The notes under the pieces were generated by a model that worked only from the letters and a program-made list of their open reading frames with translations, had not been told where the DNA came from and did no database searches. A stretch of 64,000 bases of DNA, taken from positions 186,001-250,000 of the forward strand of contig UCEU01000001.1 of assembly GCA_900471485.1 (NCBI GenBank). Direction: 5' to 3'. This stretch comes from Hyphomicrobiales bacterium (GTDB taxonomy: Bacteria; Pseudomonadota; Alphaproteobacteria; Rhizobiales; Rhizobiaceae). The translations under genes and the position numbers were made by a program. Below, in pieces: positions 48,538 through 64,000 of this stretch. How positions within the stretch are numbered: position 1 is the first letter of the stretch; every line of letters begins with the position of its first letter.

Positions 48538-50433
48538 TCACGTATCGGATCCGCTTGCCGTTTCTTCGAGAACCGCCTCCGGGATATCGTCGAACGACGC
48601 GTAGTTCAGATTGTAGAGCCGCGAGTAGAGCTTGCGGTTCTTCATCAGCTGCTGATGGTTGCCGCTCTCGATCAGCTCGCCGTTCTGCAGCACGATGATG
48701 CGGTCGGCCTCGCGGATGGTCGCCAGCCGGTGGGCGATGACTAGGCCGGTGCGGTTTTCCAGGAGCTTCACCAGCGCCTTCTGGATCAGCATCTCGGTAT
48801 AGCTGTCGATATTGGCGGTCGCCTCATCGAGCACCAGGATTTTGGCATCCGCGACCAGCGCGCGGGCGAAGCTCAGCAACTGGCGCTGGCCGAGCGAGAG
48901 ATTGCCGCCGCGTTCGCCCAGCATGCTGTCATAGCCCTCGGGAAGCCGCATGATGAAGTCATGCGCGCCGACCGCCTTGGCTGCCTCGATCACCTGTTCG
49001 CGCGTGGCCTCGCGCTTGTGGTAGCGGATGTTTTCGAACACCGTGCCGGTGAAGAGGAAAGGCTCCTGCAGCACCATGGCGATCTGCTCACCAAGCGAAT
49101 CCTGCGTCAGGCTGCGCACGTCATGGCCACCGACAAGGACCTGTCCCTGTTGGACATCGTAAAAGCGGTGGATCAGCGACATGCAGCTCGACTTGCCGGA
49201 ACCTGTCGGACCGACCAGCGCGACGGTTTCGCCGGGATTTACCTTGAAGCTCACATGCTTCAACACCGGATGGCTCGGATTATAGCCGAAGACGACATCC
49301 TTGAATTCGACCGAGCCGTCCATGTCTTTCGACAAGGCCGTGGCATCAGGGGCGTCCCTGATGTCGACGGGCACGTCGAGGACCTCCGTCAGCCGCTGAC
49401 CGGAGGCCATGGCGCGCTGCATGACGGAATATTGCAGCGTCAGCGAGCGGATCGGGTCGAAGAAGCGTTGGATGTAGAACAGGAAGGCGACGAGAACGCC
49501 GACATCGAGCGCCTGGTTGAGCACGCGCGCGCCACCGACGACGATGACGAGCGCCATGGCGACGCCGGTCAGCGAATCCACGATCGGCACCATCACCTGC
49601 GCATAGCGCGCCGCCGTCAGATGGGCGTTGAGATTTGCCTTGGCCTTGTCGTCGAAGAGCGTGAAATTGACGCCCTGGCGATCCATCCCCTGGACGGCGC
49701 GTACGCCATGGATCGCTTCCGCAAGCGCTCCCGCGGCGATCGAATTCGTCTCGTGCGCGGCCATGAAGGACTTTCGCGCCAGCGGAAGCCAGAAGAGACG
49801 GACGATGAAAAGGATCGGCAGGACGGAAAGCGTCAGCAGGCCGAGCTTGAAGTCGAGATAGAGCATCACGAAGACGATGCCGAACAAAAGCGTGATATCG
49901 CCGACGGAGAGAACGGAGGTCTCGAGAAACTCTTGCATCGAGTTCACATCGCCCTGCAGCCGCGACATCAGCCGGCCGACTTCGGTCTTGTCCATGAAGG
50001 ACAGCGACACCCTTTGCAGGTGCGAGAACATCGCCTTGCGGATATCGAAGAGAACATCTTCCGCCACGCCGCCGACCAGCGTCTCCTGCGCGTAGCTCGC
50101 GACATAATTGATCAGGATCGCAACGAGGAAGGCAAGCATCGACCAGAGCAGCGCGGAATGGCCTGCATCGGGCTTCATGCCGTGGTCGATCGCGTAGCGG
50201 ATGATCAGCGGGATGAGCAACTGCATTGCGGTGAAGGTCAGCACCGCCACGACGGAGAGGATCACCTGCCGCCGGTACGGGCTGACGAAGGCCCAGATGC
50301 GCTTGATGATGTTTCCGTCGAAGGCCTTGCCGAAGATTTCCTCCTCGACGCGATGCGAACCGACCACGGCGCGGGGAGGGCGCCGGCCATCCTCGCGAAC
50401 GTCGGCGCGTTCGGTTTCCACTTCCTCGGCCAT
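48538..50433 (-). CDS. ABC exporter half-transporter, catalytic-site subunit
   Basis: A 631-residue half-transporter with six membrane helices (about 55-345) and an ATPase domain. Walker A GPTGSGKSS is at 408-416, Walker B ILVLDE at 532-537 with catalytic E537, and switch H568. Its signature is LSLGQ (512-516) rather than LSGGQ. The partner encoded just upstream has the opposite pattern, so the pair should form a heterodimeric exporter of the LmrCD/TM287-288 type with one active and one degenerate site. Exported substrate is unknown. Confidence 0.92.
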   Translation of the reverse strand: MAEEVETERADVREDGRRPPRAVVGSHRVEEEIFGKAFDGNIIKRIWAFVSPYRRQVILSVVAVLTFTAMQLLIPLIIRYAIDHGMKPDAGHSALLWSMLAFLVAILINYVASYAQETLVGGVAEDVLFDIRKAMFSHLQRVSLSFMDKTEVGRLMSRLQGDVNSMQEFLETSVLSVGDITLLFGIVFVMLYLDFKLGLLTLSVLPILFIVRLFWLPLARKSFMAAHETNSIAAGALAEAIHGVRAVQGMDRQGVNFTLFDDKAKANLNAHLTAARYAQVMVPIVDSLTGVAMALVIVVGGARVLNQALDVGVLVAFLFYIQRFFDPIRSLTLQYSVMQRAMASGQRLTEVLDVPVDIRDAPDATALSKDMDGSVEFKDVVFGYNPSHPVLKHVSFKVNPGETVALVGPTGSGKSSCMSLIHRFYDVQQGQVLVGGHDVRSLTQDSLGEQIAMVLQEPFLFTGTVFENIRYHKREATREQVIEAAKAVGAHDFIMRLPEGYDSMLGERGGNLSLGQRQLLSFARALVADAKILVLDEATANIDSYTEMLIQKALVKLLENRTGLVIAHRLATIREADRIIVLQNGELIESGNHQQLMKNRKLYSRLYNLNYASFDDIPEAVLEETASGSDT

Positions 50434-50444
50434 ATCGTTCCTCC

Positions 50445-52298
50445 CTAGGCGCTCTTCACGTCATCGCCCGGCCGCACCTGCAGGTCGTAGAGCGCCTTGT
50501 ATTTTCCGTCCGCCGCCAGAAGCTCCTCATGGGTGCCGCGTTCGACGATCTCGCCGCCTTCGACGAAGAAGATCTGATCGGCATGCATCAGCGAGCTCAG
50601 CCGGTGCGCGACGATAACGGTGACGCGGTCGGCTGCGTATTTGCGCATGGCGGTGCGGATGCGCTGCTCGGTGGCGGCATCGATTGCGGCGGTCGAATCG
50701 TCGAATACCATGACGGCGGGTTTCAGCATCAACGCCCGGGCGATGGAGAGACGCTGCCTCTGGCCGCCGGAAAGCGACACCCCGCGCTCGCCGATGACGG
50801 TGTCGTAGCCCGTCGGCAGGCCAAGCACGTAGTTGTGCAGCTGCGCGCTCTCGCTTGCCCGTTCGATGCGGGTTTCCTTCGCCCAGGGGTCGCCATAGGC
50901 GATGTTGTTCTCGATCGACGTAGTGAACAGGAACGAATCCTGCTGCACCACCGCGACGGCCTGGCGCAATGACTGTAGCGTGACCTCGCGGATATCCTGC
51001 CCGTCGATCGTGATCCTGCCCTTGGTCACGTCGTAGAAGCGGGGGATGAGATGGGCGAGCGTCGACTTTCCGCTGCCGGGAGGGCCGACGATGCCGATCG
51101 TCTCGCCGCGTTTGGCCTCGAAGGAGATATCGCGCAGGATCTCGTGCATGGGAGAGCTAGGGTATGCGAAGCTTACGTTTTCGAAACGCAGCGTTCCCTC
51201 TGTTCGCCGAAGCTCCTTTGCCTGCGGCGCATCCCTGACGGCGATTTCGAGATCCAGCAGGTTGAACAGGCGCGTGCCGCAGGTGGATGCGCGGGCAAAG
51301 GCGTTGACCATGAGACCGAGCTGGCGCACGGGCATCTGCAGGATCGTCATGAAGGTGAGGAAGGAGGTGAGCGTGCCGACCGTCATCTCGCCCGACATGA
51401 CCTTGCCGCCGCCGACCCACAGCACGAGCCCCATGGCGGCGAAGAAGGAGAAGGTCATGGCGCTGGTGTTGACGACGCGGATACCGACGCGCCGGTGGGC
51501 GAGCGCAAGCGCGGTCTTGGACGCCGCCTCGAATTTCATCAGTTCGTAGGCCTGCGCCGCGAAGGCGCGGACAACGCGGATGCCGCCGAGATTTTCTTCC
51601 ATGATGCGCGTCAGCACCGAAAGCTTTTCCTGGAGATCGAGCCAGGTGGCGCGCAGGCGCAGCTGCGTGACGGAGGAACGCCAGGCGACGAAGGGCACGA
51701 AGCTCAGCGCCAACAGGCCGAGGACGACATCGGTCGACAGCAGCATGTAGGCGCCGATCCCGATCAGGATCGTCAGCAGGATCATGCGCACCAGCGCCGT
51801 CGAGAAATACATGCGCACGCCTTCGAGATCGAGCAGGCCGATCGTGATCAGGTCCCCGGAGTGGACGCTGTCGTGAAAGCTGAAGGAGAGGCGCTGGATC
51901 TTCTCGTAACAGGCGAGCCGCAGCTCGTAGCCCATATGGTGGCCGACGCTTTCGCTATAGTAGTTCTGCACCATGGTGAACATGCCGCGCAGGATACTGG
52001 CGCCGAGCAGCATGAGAGCGGTGGTGAGCAGTGCGTCCTGCGCGATCTGTCCCGCCGCGCCGCCTTCCAGCGCCACCTGCGTGTGATCGACCGCCTGCCC
52101 GAGCAGTCGCGGGATCATCAGCTGGAAAGCTGAGGCAACGAGGGTTGCGCCGATGGCGAAGCCGGATTGCCAGGGATGGCGGAAAGCCATTGCGGTAATG
52201 CGGACAAGCGTAAAGAGGCCCTTGCCCCAGCCGGCCGCACTGACATGCGCCATCGAAGCCGAAGGCTTCGTCGCATGTATTGACGCATCGCTGCTCAC
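50445..52298 (-). CDS. ABC exporter half-transporter, degenerate-site subunit
   Basis: A 617-residue half-transporter with Walker A GPPGSGKST (405-413), canonical signature LSGGQ (509-513) and switch H565. Its Walker B ends in Asp (VFDD, D534) in place of the catalytic Glu. That change defines the non-hydrolysing site of heterodimeric exporters. It is first in the operon, 11 bp before its partner. The GTG start at 52298 follows GTGGAA. Confidence 0.92.
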   Translation of the reverse strand: MSSDASIHATKPSASMAHVSAAGWGKGLFTLVRITAMAFRHPWQSGFAIGATLVASAFQLMIPRLLGQAVDHTQVALEGGAAGQIAQDALLTTALMLLGASILRGMFTMVQNYYSESVGHHMGYELRLACYEKIQRLSFSFHDSVHSGDLITIGLLDLEGVRMYFSTALVRMILLTILIGIGAYMLLSTDVVLGLLALSFVPFVAWRSSVTQLRLRATWLDLQEKLSVLTRIMEENLGGIRVVRAFAAQAYELMKFEAASKTALALAHRRVGIRVVNTSAMTFSFFAAMGLVLWVGGGKVMSGEMTVGTLTSFLTFMTILQMPVRQLGLMVNAFARASTCGTRLFNLLDLEIAVRDAPQAKELRRTEGTLRFENVSFAYPSSPMHEILRDISFEAKRGETIGIVGPPGSGKSTLAHLIPRFYDVTKGRITIDGQDIREVTLQSLRQAVAVVQQDSFLFTTSIENNIAYGDPWAKETRIERASESAQLHNYVLGLPTGYDTVIGERGVSLSGGQRQRLSIARALMLKPAVMVFDDSTAAIDAATEQRIRTAMRKYAADRVTVIVAHRLSSLMHADQIFFVEGGEIVERGTHEELLAADGKYKALYDLQVRPGDDVKSA

Positions 52299-61052: not shown

Positions 61053-61520
61053 CTAGTTTACCGGCTCCGGCTTCCTCGCGGAACGCGCGGCGGTCAGTTC
61101 CGCCGTCGTGTGGTTCAGGCGGTCGGCCAGCACGCGCATGATCTCGACGGCCATCTCGGGAAAATCGCTAAGCAGCTTGAGGAAATGCTCCTTGCTAATG
61201 CGCAAAACCTCGAGCGGAGAGGTGGCGCGGACGGTCGCCGTACGGGACACGTCGCAGAGAATGGCGATCTCGCCGACGATGGAATTGAGCTCTACATCGG
61301 CGACCTTGATATCGCCGGCAGGCGAGTGAACCAGAATATCGGCAGTTCCCGAAAGCACGACGTAAGCGGCATCGCCGGTATCGCCTTGATGGAAAAGATC
61401 CTGACCCACATTGTAGGTCATTCGGTCGGAAGTGAATGCCAAAAGCTTGAGTTTCGCCGGTGCGATCCTGGAAAAGATCGGCACCCGCCGCAGCATTTCG
61501 ACTTCATCTCTCAACAGCAT
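61053..61520 (-). CDS. Stand-alone cyclic-nucleotide-binding domain protein
   Basis: A 155-residue protein formed by one CRP-type sensory beta-barrel with its helices. GEIAILCDVSRTATVRA is the phosphate-binding cassette, with the conserved G-E pair and R-(T)-A region. There is no DNA-binding domain, so it is not a CRP transcription factor. It lies 97 bp downstream of a degenerate ABC-exporter-like gene on the same strand, so it may be its regulatory subunit. The true ligand (cAMP, cGMP or other) is not clear. Confidence 0.85.
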   Translation of the reverse strand: MLLRDEVEMLRRVPIFSRIAPAKLKLLAFTSDRMTYNVGQDLFHQGDTGDAAYVVLSGTADILVHSPAGDIKVADVELNSIVGEIAILCDVSRTATVRATSPLEVLRISKEHFLKLLSDFPEMAVEIMRVLADRLNHTTAELTAARSARKPEPVN

Positions 61521-61617: not shown

Positions 61618-64000
61618 TTACGATAACAGTTCCTTGAACATACCGTTTTGCTCGGAAAGTTCGGGAAAGTTGCCGGCCTCGGCCAATACACCTCTGTCGA
61701 ACAGCAGGATTCGGTCGAAAATCTCGGCAAGCTTGGCGTTGGAGAGCACCCAGACGATGGCCGGACGTTCGCCTTCCGTGTGCAGGTTCTCGACGACGTT
61801 GTGCGTGATCTGATCCTGGACGCGCTGGTCGAGTGCCGAAAGCGGGCGATTGAAGATGAAGTAGTCCGAGCGCTTCAGGAGCGAACGGGCAAGGTTGAGC
61901 TTCTGTCGTTGCACCATCGTCAGACGCTTGCCGCCGGAGCCGACGTCGAATTCGAGGCCGATGGAGAGCACGTCGTCGAAAAGCCCGAGGCGATCGAGCA
62001 GTTCGCCCATGATGGCGCGAATGCGGTCCGATGCGTCCGCCTGCTGGTAGGCGATGCGGCCGAAGAGCACGTTGTCCATCAGGCTGGCGGACGAGATGAA
62101 ATGCTCGGGATCGTATCGCTCGATGACGGCGGCGAGATCATCGGGGATGTTCTCGTGGAACTGCTTGCGGGCGCTGACGATCTTGTCCATCAGCTCGTTG
62201 CTCAAGAGGCCGAAACGATGCCGCGGCTCGATGTAGGCGAAGCTAAGGCGGATGATCGCGGACCGCTCTTCGGGTGCCGCGTCGTCGAACTTCCGGCTCT
62301 GCAGTTTCTGCAACAGGGCCTGATAGGTCGGGATGTCATCCGGCGTCATGAAGGTCAGCTGCTGGAAGAACGGATGATCCGGCGGCAGGTCGTGGAAGAG
62401 TTCCACGGCGTTCTCCGCGATTTCCAGGCCCATGGCGTAGAGATCGTTGCTGAGGCCCGTATCGCGGAACAGCGTCTGGAAATAGGGGTGCGCGGCGAGC
62501 CGCCGGTTGTTCATCATCGGTCGCCGCATCGAGCCGAACAGCAGGTTTTCGCCGACGGTCGCCTGTACGTTGTAGGCGTCGAAATCGAATGGCACGACGA
62601 TGTTGCCGAGGCCGGTGTCCTGCATCTGCTTTCGAAGCGCGGCGCGCAGGTCGACGATATGCGAGGCAAGCGCCACGTGCACGCCGGTATTGACATTGGA
62701 ACGCAATGCCAGGTCGAGAATATCCTGCGAAATCAGCACGGCGTCGAGTACCGGGCGGATCGCTGCCAGCAGGTCTTCGGGCCCGGTGGCGCCTGCCGAA
62801 TTATAATCGACCCAGTCGCTGTTCAGATCGAGCGTCGGGTTGCCTGCCTTCACGGCTTCTGCGGCGTGCCACTTTGCTTCTGTCGCCATCCGCTCGTCAT
62901 AGGCGGGCTTCGTCAGAGGGGCATGCTTCAGGCCGTAGAGCAGATTGTCGCGTAGCGTGCCGTGGAAGAAATAGGTGTCCGCCGAGGCGTAGGAGATGCG
63001 CCGTCCGGTGACCGATTCCGGCAGCTCGAGCAGGTCGTGGCCGTCGATCGTGATACGACCGGAATCGGGCCAGGCGATGCGACCCAGCGCTTCGGCGAAA
63101 GCCTCTGCGCCGCTGCTGTTCGGACCGACCACGGCGACGGTTTCGTTGGGCTTGATCTCGACGGAGACATGATCGACCAGGCGCGCGCCGCTGTCGTCGC
63201 TGAGCGAAAGGTTCGTCACGACAAGCGGAGCTGTCAGGCCGACGACGGCTGCGGTCGGGATGTCGTGGATCTTGCTGTCGATCAGCGGCTCGATGTTGAA
63301 CTGCTCGTAGACCTGCTGGTACTTGACCTGCACGTCCTGGCGCATCTGATCCCAGTCGATCAGTTCCTTCAGCGGGCCGGGAAGATCCTTGTAAGCACTG
63401 ATGACGGCGACGAGCTGGCCGATGTCGAGCCGGCCCTGCAGCGCCAGATAGCCGCCGATCGCGTAAAACAGGAACGGCGTCACCTGAGCGAGGAAATTGT
63501 TCAGGAATTTGACCAGGAACTTCCACTGATAGAGGTCGTAGCGGATCGAGAAGATCAGCCCCAGGCGGGTGGCGATATCGGCGCGTTCGAGGTTCGACGT
63601 GTCGTTGCCGTGGATCGTGCCGATACCGTCGACGATTTCGCCGACGCGGCCGGAGAGTTCGCGTGCAGTCAGCTGGCGCTGGCGGCCGAGTTCGAGCAGG
63701 CGCCGGCGCATGCGCGGGATGATAACGGCTTGTACCCCGACGATGGCGGCGGCGATCATGCCCAGCCAGAAGTTCTGGACGATGATGAAGGCGAGTGCCG
63801 TCAGAGCCTGGCCACCCAGCAGGGCGGGCGCCACGAAGGCATCGCCGGTGAAGCCGCCCATCGGCTCGACTTCATCCTTGATCATCGTCGCGATTTCGGC
63901 CGACTTCACACGCTTGAAGTGATTGGGCGGGAAGCGCAGCACCCGGTCGATCAGCTCGAAGCGAATGCGCCGAAGCATACGTTCGCCGAGGCGGCCCTTG
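61618..64000 (-). CDS. ABC-exporter-like protein with degenerate, expanded ATPase domain (5' end outside window)
   Basis: The frame is open to the right edge. Numbering here is from the in-window ATG at 63978 (786 residues). Residues about 1-205 are ABC-exporter membrane helices, and the ATPase-like domain follows. Walker A is GPNSSGAEA (285-293), without lysine. The Q-loop region reads SYASAD, without Gln. The signature region is GSGGKRLTMVQ, Walker B is YFIFNRP (706-712) in place of LDEP, and the switch His is replaced (VLSNAKL). Only SALD (714-717) is normal. About 400 residues separate Walker A and signature, against roughly 110-120 usually. It is likely a non-hydrolysing or highly diverged transporter subunit. 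Confidence 0.87.
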   Translation of the reverse strand, partial: KGRLGERMLRRIRFELIDRVLRFPPNHFKRVKSAEIATMIKDEVEPMGGFTGDAFVAPALLGGQALTALAFIIVQNFWLGMIAAAIVGVQAVIIPRMRRRLLELGRQRQLTARELSGRVGEIVDGIGTIHGNDTSNLERADIATRLGLIFSIRYDLYQWKFLVKFLNNFLAQVTPFLFYAIGGYLALQGRLDIGQLVAVISAYKDLPGPLKELIDWDQMRQDVQVKYQQVYEQFNIEPLIDSKIHDIPTAAVVGLTAPLVVTNLSLSDDSGARLVDHVSVEIKPNETVAVVGPNSSGAEAFAEALGRIAWPDSGRITIDGHDLLELPESVTGRRISYASADTYFFHGTLRDNLLYGLKHAPLTKPAYDERMATEAKWHAAEAVKAGNPTLDLNSDWVDYNSAGATGPEDLLAAIRPVLDAVLISQDILDLALRSNVNTGVHVALASHIVDLRAALRKQMQDTGLGNIVVPFDFDAYNVQATVGENLLFGSMRRPMMNNRRLAAHPYFQTLFRDTGLSNDLYAMGLEIAENAVELFHDLPPDHPFFQQLTFMTPDDIPTYQALLQKLQSRKFDDAAPEERSAIIRLSFAYIEPRHRFGLLSNELMDKIVSARKQFHENIPDDLAAVIERYDPEHFISSASLMDNVLFGRIAYQQADASDRIRAIMGELLDRLGLFDDVLSIGLEFDVGSGGKRLTMVQRQKLNLARSLLKRSDYFIFNRPLSALDQRVQDQITHNVVENLHTEGERPAIVWVLSNAKLAEIFDRILLFDRGVLAEAGNFPELSEQNGMFKELLS

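Follow-up and report, generated by a model that had tools for sequence, protein, structure and literature searches.

The ATP engine is the hallmark of ABC proteins, and the gene considered here raises the question of what such a protein does when the engine has been discarded and the membrane domain has been kept under strong selection. The gene lies at the right-hand end of the window, i.e., the whole stretch of 64,000 nt that was analysed (G000:C47:186001-250000, contig UCEU01000001.1). The ORF at 61618-63978 covers only the 3´ part of its gene, the frame of which is open at the window edge. The full gene extends past the window to L003:6332 (G000:C47:250332) and encodes a protein of 904 residues, with orthologue alignments spanning residues 1-904. 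An earlier reading made from the letters of the window (the sequence-only reading) had described an intact frame over 786 residues; the frame is open as claimed, but its presumed start is internal to the full-length protein.

The degeneration of the nucleotide-binding domain (NBD) described by that reading, comprising a Walker A motif without Lys, a Walker B motif reading YFIFNRP, a Q-loop without Gln and the loss of the switch His, was confirmed in the sequence, together with the retained D-loop SALD at residue 832 (Table 1). The Walker A stretch GPNSSGAEA offers neither Lys nor Ser/Thr, the Q-loop reads SADTYFFHG, and in Walker B the Asp is replaced by Asn and the catalytic Glu by Arg. The LSGGQ signature is also lost (GSGGKRLTMVQRQK at residue 798), and none of the seven ATP features scored is present. 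ATP binding has most likely been lost in this protein as well. Pfam searches with the full protein recognized the exporter membrane domain PF00664 at residues 87-312 (56.2 bits; cut-off 28), and the ABC_tran profile matched through its first part only (residues 387-485; profile positions 2-80 of 137). The best NCBIfam models are those of MsbA, NHLM and bacteriocin exporters, all of them far below their cut-offs. As a control, the other genes of the same genome that match PF00664 (E ≤ 1e-4) were inspected, and 15 of 15 carry G-x4-GK[ST]. Since every other exporter-type gene found in the genome keeps its Walker A motif, the loss observed here is more than chance.

Table 1. Features of the exporter gene and its downstream neighbour (positions in the window; residues of the encoded protein).
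Feature	Position	Strand	Residues	Remark
Pseudo-ABC exporter gene	61618..64000	-	112-904 of 904	5´ end outside the window
Membrane domain PF00664	63298..64000	-	112-345	best conserved part
Degenerate Walker A GPNSSGAEA	63100..63126	-	403-411	
Q-loop region without Gln	62962..62991	-	448-457	in repeat copy A
Expanded helical region inside the NBD	61948..62922	-	471-795	
Repeat copy B	62527..62607	-	576-602	with YNVQATVGENLLFG
Repeat copy C	62053..62127	-	736-760	with SASLMDNVLFG
Signature-like segment GSGGKRLTMVQRQKLNLAR	61885..61941	-	798-816	replaces LSGGQ
Degenerate Walker B YFIFNRP	61843..61863	-	824-830	
Retained D-loop SALD	61828..61839	-	832-835	
H-loop region WVLSNAK	61732..61752	-	861-867	without His
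cNMP-binding protein, proposed sensor subunit	61053..61520	-	155 in total	cNMP_binding is the sole Pfam domain above cut-off
Phosphate-binding cassette GEIAILCDVSRTAT of the cNMP-binding protein	61233..61274	-	83-96	

Homologues of the exporter were detected at the family level in 70 of 151 genomes (E ≤ 1e-80), at the order level in 94 of 297 (E ≤ 1e-90) and in 129 of 385 genomes sampled from Alphaproteobacteria (E ≤ 1e-80). A sample of the phylum yielded 21 positive genomes out of 299 (E ≤ 1e-80), all 21 within the class. For the family alignment, 269 matches were reduced to 258 distinct ORFs of at least 700 residues; seven loci were left out of the set, five of them as duplicates of others, with L001-L003 among these as one place. 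The position of the Walker A Lys is occupied by K in 42 members, by R in 44 and by other residues in 172. The full GK[ST] motif is found in four of the 258, and Lys is followed by Ser/Thr in only four of the K members. The tree (FastTree, 900 columns, midpoint root) places 162 of the 172 members with neither K nor R, including the window protein, in a single clade with support of 1.0; the other ten are spread over seven small groups or single branches. Parsimony requires 12 changes between K and not-K on this tree, their direction being uncertain because of the midpoint root.

None of the seven ATP features is present in 163 of the 258 members, whereas five members display five or more, the best being L272 with six. 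Relatives with partly intact ATP motifs therefore exist, but they are distant. Several motifs survive in some of these relatives, so being ATP-free is not a trait of the entire family. The occurrence of homologues with intact Walker motifs had been named beforehand as an argument against a genuine pseudo-ATPase. This applies only in part: the 42 members with Lys and the four with GK[ST] all lie outside the clade of 162.

The degenerate motifs of the window protein recur in other Rhizobium genomes, and the frame is open in all 39 sequences compared (the window gene and 38 orthologues). By the Nei-Gojobori method, the median dN/dS of the window gene against these 38 orthologues is 0.109, and a value of 0.057 was obtained over 249 close pairs. 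Among the close pairs, the membrane domain shows the lowest ratio (0.035), compared with 0.092 for the first part of the NBD, and the NBD likewise has the higher column entropy of the two domains in 153 non-redundant members. The pseudo-ABC exporter is maintained under purifying selection, as the sequence-only reading had proposed when it spoke of a maintained protein and not a pseudogene, and the check on dN/dS that it had called for came out low. A sequencing error or frameshift does not account for the motifs, given their recurrence in Rhizobium, the open frames and the low ratios. A decaying pseudogene or an artefact was rejected as having practically no chance of being correct, with 39 of 39 frames open, dN/dS of 0.06-0.11 and 258 distinct ORFs of at least 700 residues.

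The structure of the NBD was approached with AlphaFold2 by modelling the orthologue from R. cauense (91% identity to the window protein) with 33 sequences. The mean pLDDT is 72.8; most of the NBD is modelled well, and the membrane domain is poor in places. With VIA-align, the ComA NBD (3vx4_D; 240 residues) was superimposed over its entire length on model residues 363-904 (Z 29.0, rmsd 2.4). As far as the model goes, the NBD fold is complete despite the loss of its motifs. Since the span 363-904 is matched by only 240 ComA residues, about 300 residues are extra. Profile comparison relates three stretches of the protein, residues 440-520 (A), 570-650 (B) and 730-800 (C). The relationship between B and C is the strongest (E 1.4e-18 over 64 columns), followed by A-C (E 2.1e-7 over 30 columns) and A-B (E 3.5e-6 over 24 columns). 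At the level of sequence profiles, A, B and C are read as repeated copies of the segment that opens the NBD helical subdomain, the match of copy A being short. When the expansion was searched alone against the PDB (residues 471-764, mean pLDDT 73.7), no match at E ≤ 0.001 and none with Z ≥ 8 were obtained, a result that is not proof of a new fold.

A gene encoding a small cNMP-binding protein is located 97 bases downstream of the exporter gene on the same strand. The protein matches PF00027 at 64.3 bits (cut-off 27.5) and harbours the cassette GE...R[TS]A. Its sequence relatives in the PDB include PKA regulatory subunits and SthK channels, and it is also matched, far below the curated cut-off, by TIGR03896, a model for cNMP proteins that is named after bacteriocin-type transport. 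The sequence-only reading had arrived at a maintained pseudo-ATPase exporter, which stands, but it contained neither the full length, nor the expansion and repeats of the NBD, nor this partner at 61053-61520. The S. meliloti cNMP gene is annotated as a Crp/Fnr transcription regulator; the protein of the window does not fit this class, since no C-terminal DNA-binding domain was seen in its 155 residues, for which Pfam gives PF00027 alone above cut-off.

The association between exporter and cNMP domain is nearly obligate. The genes were located by six-frame searches and placed from the start of the domain, and a cNMP-binding domain is adjacent downstream or fused at 253 of the 258 exporter loci. 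In 235 loci the domain is encoded by a separate gene that closely follows the exporter gene on the same strand, and in 233 of these the domain starts between -10 and +286 bases from the end of the exporter frame; the placement is looser in L202 (an overlap of 376 with the exporter frame) and L207 (619 away). In another 18 of the 258, the domain is fused at the C-terminus of the exporter. Six-frame searches covering 1.3-2.9 kb downstream found no cNMP gene at the five other loci (L187, L200, L201, L242 and L275), four of which have the Walker A Lys. L187, L200 and L201, which make up a small group with tree support and have retained comparatively many of the ATP motifs, show no cNMP gene in the 1.5 kb downstream. 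Across an alignment of 123 separate cNMP proteins, G83 and R93 are invariant and E84 is retained in 119. All 18 fused domains show E or D, and 17 of them show R. As the cassette is kept in both separate and fused domains, the ATP site has decayed and the cyclic-nucleotide site has not.

It had been suggested that a catalytic partner could be encoded just beyond the window. Upstream of the exporter, on the same strand, two GT28-type and one GT4-type glycosyltransferase genes were found instead, followed by two ORFs where R. johnstonii annotates ABC permeases (identified by position only). A family-5 binding protein and an Opp-type double ATPase are encoded further upstream, and so is a class III cyclase (L003:16335-17819), which belongs to the same same-strand run and lies about 10 kb from the exporter. 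No other exporter-type ABC gene was present at any of the 258 loci (95 of them under 9 kb), nor at any of 164 loci of at least 9 kb.

Neighbouring genes were counted with profiles built for this purpose in 77 non-redundant loci of at least 13 kb (mean 16 kb). A PF00211 cyclase is present in 39 of the 77 (E ≤ 0.001). Our own profile alone gave 40 of 77; of these 40 candidates, each taken from a different locus, 39 matched PF00211 in Pfam. For comparison, PF00211 is matched 20 times in the 5.83 Mb of this genome and 318 times (summed) in 41 genomes totalling ~171 Mb, from which a cyclase is expected by chance in about 3-6% of 16-kb stretches at the same model and limit. When the own-profile counts are split by the residue at the Walker A position, a cyclase accompanies 2 of 14 Lys loci, 14 of 31 Arg loci and 24 of 32 loci where another residue stands there, which is to be taken as a trend and not a test because the loci are mutually related. 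GT28-type genes occur in 43, GT4-type genes in 41 and MBL-fold genes in 36 of the 77 loci. For the MBL neighbours, RNase Z models score best and a cyclic-nucleotide phosphodiesterase model is weaker, all below cut-offs. Among the clustered neighbours, none except the cNMP gene is near universal.

The annotated records of R. johnstonii pRL11 and S. meliloti pSymB show a similar gene order, with the cyclase heading the run. In plasmid records, many family genes are annotated as 'ABC transporter ATP-binding protein', a name that is probably misleading for the family. In pRL11 (L278), a DUF3095 gene lies near the cyclase. DUF3095-type genes were seen in 12 of 153 loci of at least 13 kb, in L145 (13156-14328) directly before a cyclase-like gene, and DUF3095 is named in no paper of the full-text literature searched. 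One study (PMC5118466) lists pRL110044 among its growth-impaired genes, which may or may not concern this locus.

The cyclase-like proteins keep, in 60 of 60 aligned sequences, two Asp residues that we take to be the metal ligands. The positions presumed to select the base vary among them, with Ser at both in L003:16335-17819. As these putative base-selecting positions vary, the cyclic nucleotide may not be cAMP or cGMP, and the product of this cyclase may be unusual. Six of the 40 cyclase candidates carry a Fer2 domain. One protein, encoded at L241:4210-5913, contains a 2Fe-2S ferredoxin domain and clusters with the cyclases by similarity, with no PF00211 match at E ≤ 0.001. From their domain content, the Fer2-bearing candidates could possibly be redox-sensing cyclases.

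As an answer to the initial question, we lean, by a modest margin over an even chance, towards a membrane protein of ABC-exporter descent that no longer hydrolyses ATP and works as a complex with its dedicated cNMP-binding subunit. In the mechanism envisaged, the class III cyclase of the same neighbourhood would make a cyclic nucleotide, the presumed ligand, which would be bound by the sensor subunit. Binding would alter the packing of the pseudo-NBDs, and this change would open, close or re-shape the membrane domain, which would act as a passive conduit or membrane switch. The conduit or switch would serve a surface-glycan pathway; a glycan or glycolipid substrate is suggested by the neighbouring genes and by the resemblance to MsbA and ChvA. 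We infer the physical complex, the identity of the ligand, the gating and the substrate alike. The reading builds on the loss of the ATP motifs under purifying selection, on the adjacent or fused sensor gene with its conserved cassette, on the enrichment of cyclase genes and on the failure to find a catalytic partner nearby. Weighing against it are the low share of cyclases at Arg and Lys loci and the distance of the cyclase in this genome, the relatives with several ATP motifs, the five loci where no cNMP gene was found, the ppGpp binding of the HetC domain, the unusual base-selecting positions of the cyclase, the better scores of the MBL neighbours with RNase Z models, and the low-confidence parts of the membrane-domain model. 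A more specific version, which we regard as speculative and would not expect to hold in full, is that of a cyclic-nucleotide-gated ABC channel, in which the cyclic nucleotide serves as ligand in place of ATP as fuel, cyclase, sensor and possibly phosphodiesterase are encoded nearby, and the repeat-enlarged pseudo-NBD is perhaps the dock of the sensor.

It could be, although this is rather unlikely, that the protein moves nothing and is a signalling scaffold, relaying the cyclic-nucleotide state to another membrane protein, to the glycosyltransferases or to the Opp-type importer, in the manner of SUR on its potassium channel. The loss of the ATP motifs with retention of the sensor subunit is consistent with this role, as are the glycosyltransferase genes and the importer operon in the same run, and SUR2 chains are among the structural matches, as for any ABC exporter. 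However, apart from the cNMP gene no near-universal neighbour is available as a recipient among those clustered, and a conduit too would be expected to show its strongest conservation in the membrane domain, as is seen here. We give distinctly less credit to a TM287/288-type arrangement in which the protein is one half of a heterodimer and its catalytic partner is encoded elsewhere in the genome. The 15 Walker A exporter genes provide candidates, and heterodimeric exporters with a degenerate site are a familiar type (PMC12038006). Against it stand the absence of a partner gene near all 258 loci and the state of the chain itself: with its own LSGGQ and Walker A and B motifs lost, neither composite site would be completed in the usual way.

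Equally improbable is a working ATP-driven exporter with an unorthodox nucleotide site. The complete NBD fold, the Lys or Arg found at the Walker A position of some members and the six features of L272 speak for it, but neither residue occurs at that position throughout the clade of 162, the stretch is even shortened in L019, L024 and L029, and Asp, Glu, Gln, His and LSGGQ are also absent in the window protein. The plan of Pycsar systems, a class III cyclase and a cNMP-domain effector, brings to mind an anti-phage module, in which the cyclase would make a cyclic pyrimidine and a cNMP-domain membrane effector would damage the cell. The four cyclases scanned and the cNMP protein do match PADLOC models (PycC and PycTIR/effector). 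Yet all four cyclases score weakly against the PycC models, which class III cyclases in general would be expected to do, no PADLOC model matches the exporter at E ≤ 0.001, and the exporter is widespread and often has glycan genes as neighbours, so that an anti-phage role seems very improbable.

The preferred reading, a pseudo-ATPase membrane protein with a cyclic-nucleotide sensor subunit, can be compared with several known systems. MsbA and NdvA/ChvA are exporters that hydrolyse ATP; MsbA is the best NCBIfam match, ChvA-type glucan exporters are among the matches, and the window locus is likewise accompanied by glycosyltransferases, the difference being that the window exporter has none of the seven ATP features. 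TM287/288 and TmrAB, which keep one consensus site through their partner, share the fold and a degenerate NBD and are among the structural matches of the orthologue model, but no such partner was found near the window exporter or its relatives (258 loci). CFTR and SUR are an ABC channel and an ABC regulator that still bind ATP and whose core lacks a cNMP-binding subunit; they illustrate the use of the ABC architecture in either role. The window system has the cNMP gene and has lost the ATP motifs. The NHLM_micro_ABC1/2 models match the exporter far below their curated cut-offs, and it differs from NHLM-type exporters in lacking both ATP motifs and, by Pfam scan, a peptidase domain.

A close parallel is HetC of Nostoc, a peptidase-type ABC exporter joined to a cNMP-binding domain. 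As reported (PMC10986499), its function needs both the cNMP domain and the ATPase, and the cNMP domain bound ppGpp and not cAMP. As described there, the HetC domain is N-terminal, whereas the sensor of the window system is a separate gene and that of its relatives also a C-terminal fusion; HetC has a C39 peptidase and an essential ATPase catalytic residue, whereas the ATP motifs of the window exporter are gone. Exporters with cNMP domains and degenerate NBDs in heterodimers are thus already known. In the full-text literature, in which few subscription journals were included, the combination of a wholly degenerate and internally repeated NBD with a near-obligate cNMP subunit was not found. If the proposal is true, a second messenger can take the place of ATP in running an ABC scaffold, in a large and conserved bacterial family whose cyclic-nucleotide sensor is nearly obligate. 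The many class III cyclases of rhizobia, with 20 PF00211 matches in this genome alone, would then gain a possible membrane effector.

Elsewhere in the window, the stretches 49453-50262 and 51327-52157 are membrane-domain matches of two adjacent exporter genes. One of them has the Walker B motif VMVFDDS, with Asp at the position expected for the catalytic Glu; the other contains DEA and no LSGGQ match by pattern. From these motifs, the two genes resemble a heterodimeric exporter in which one of the sites is degenerate.
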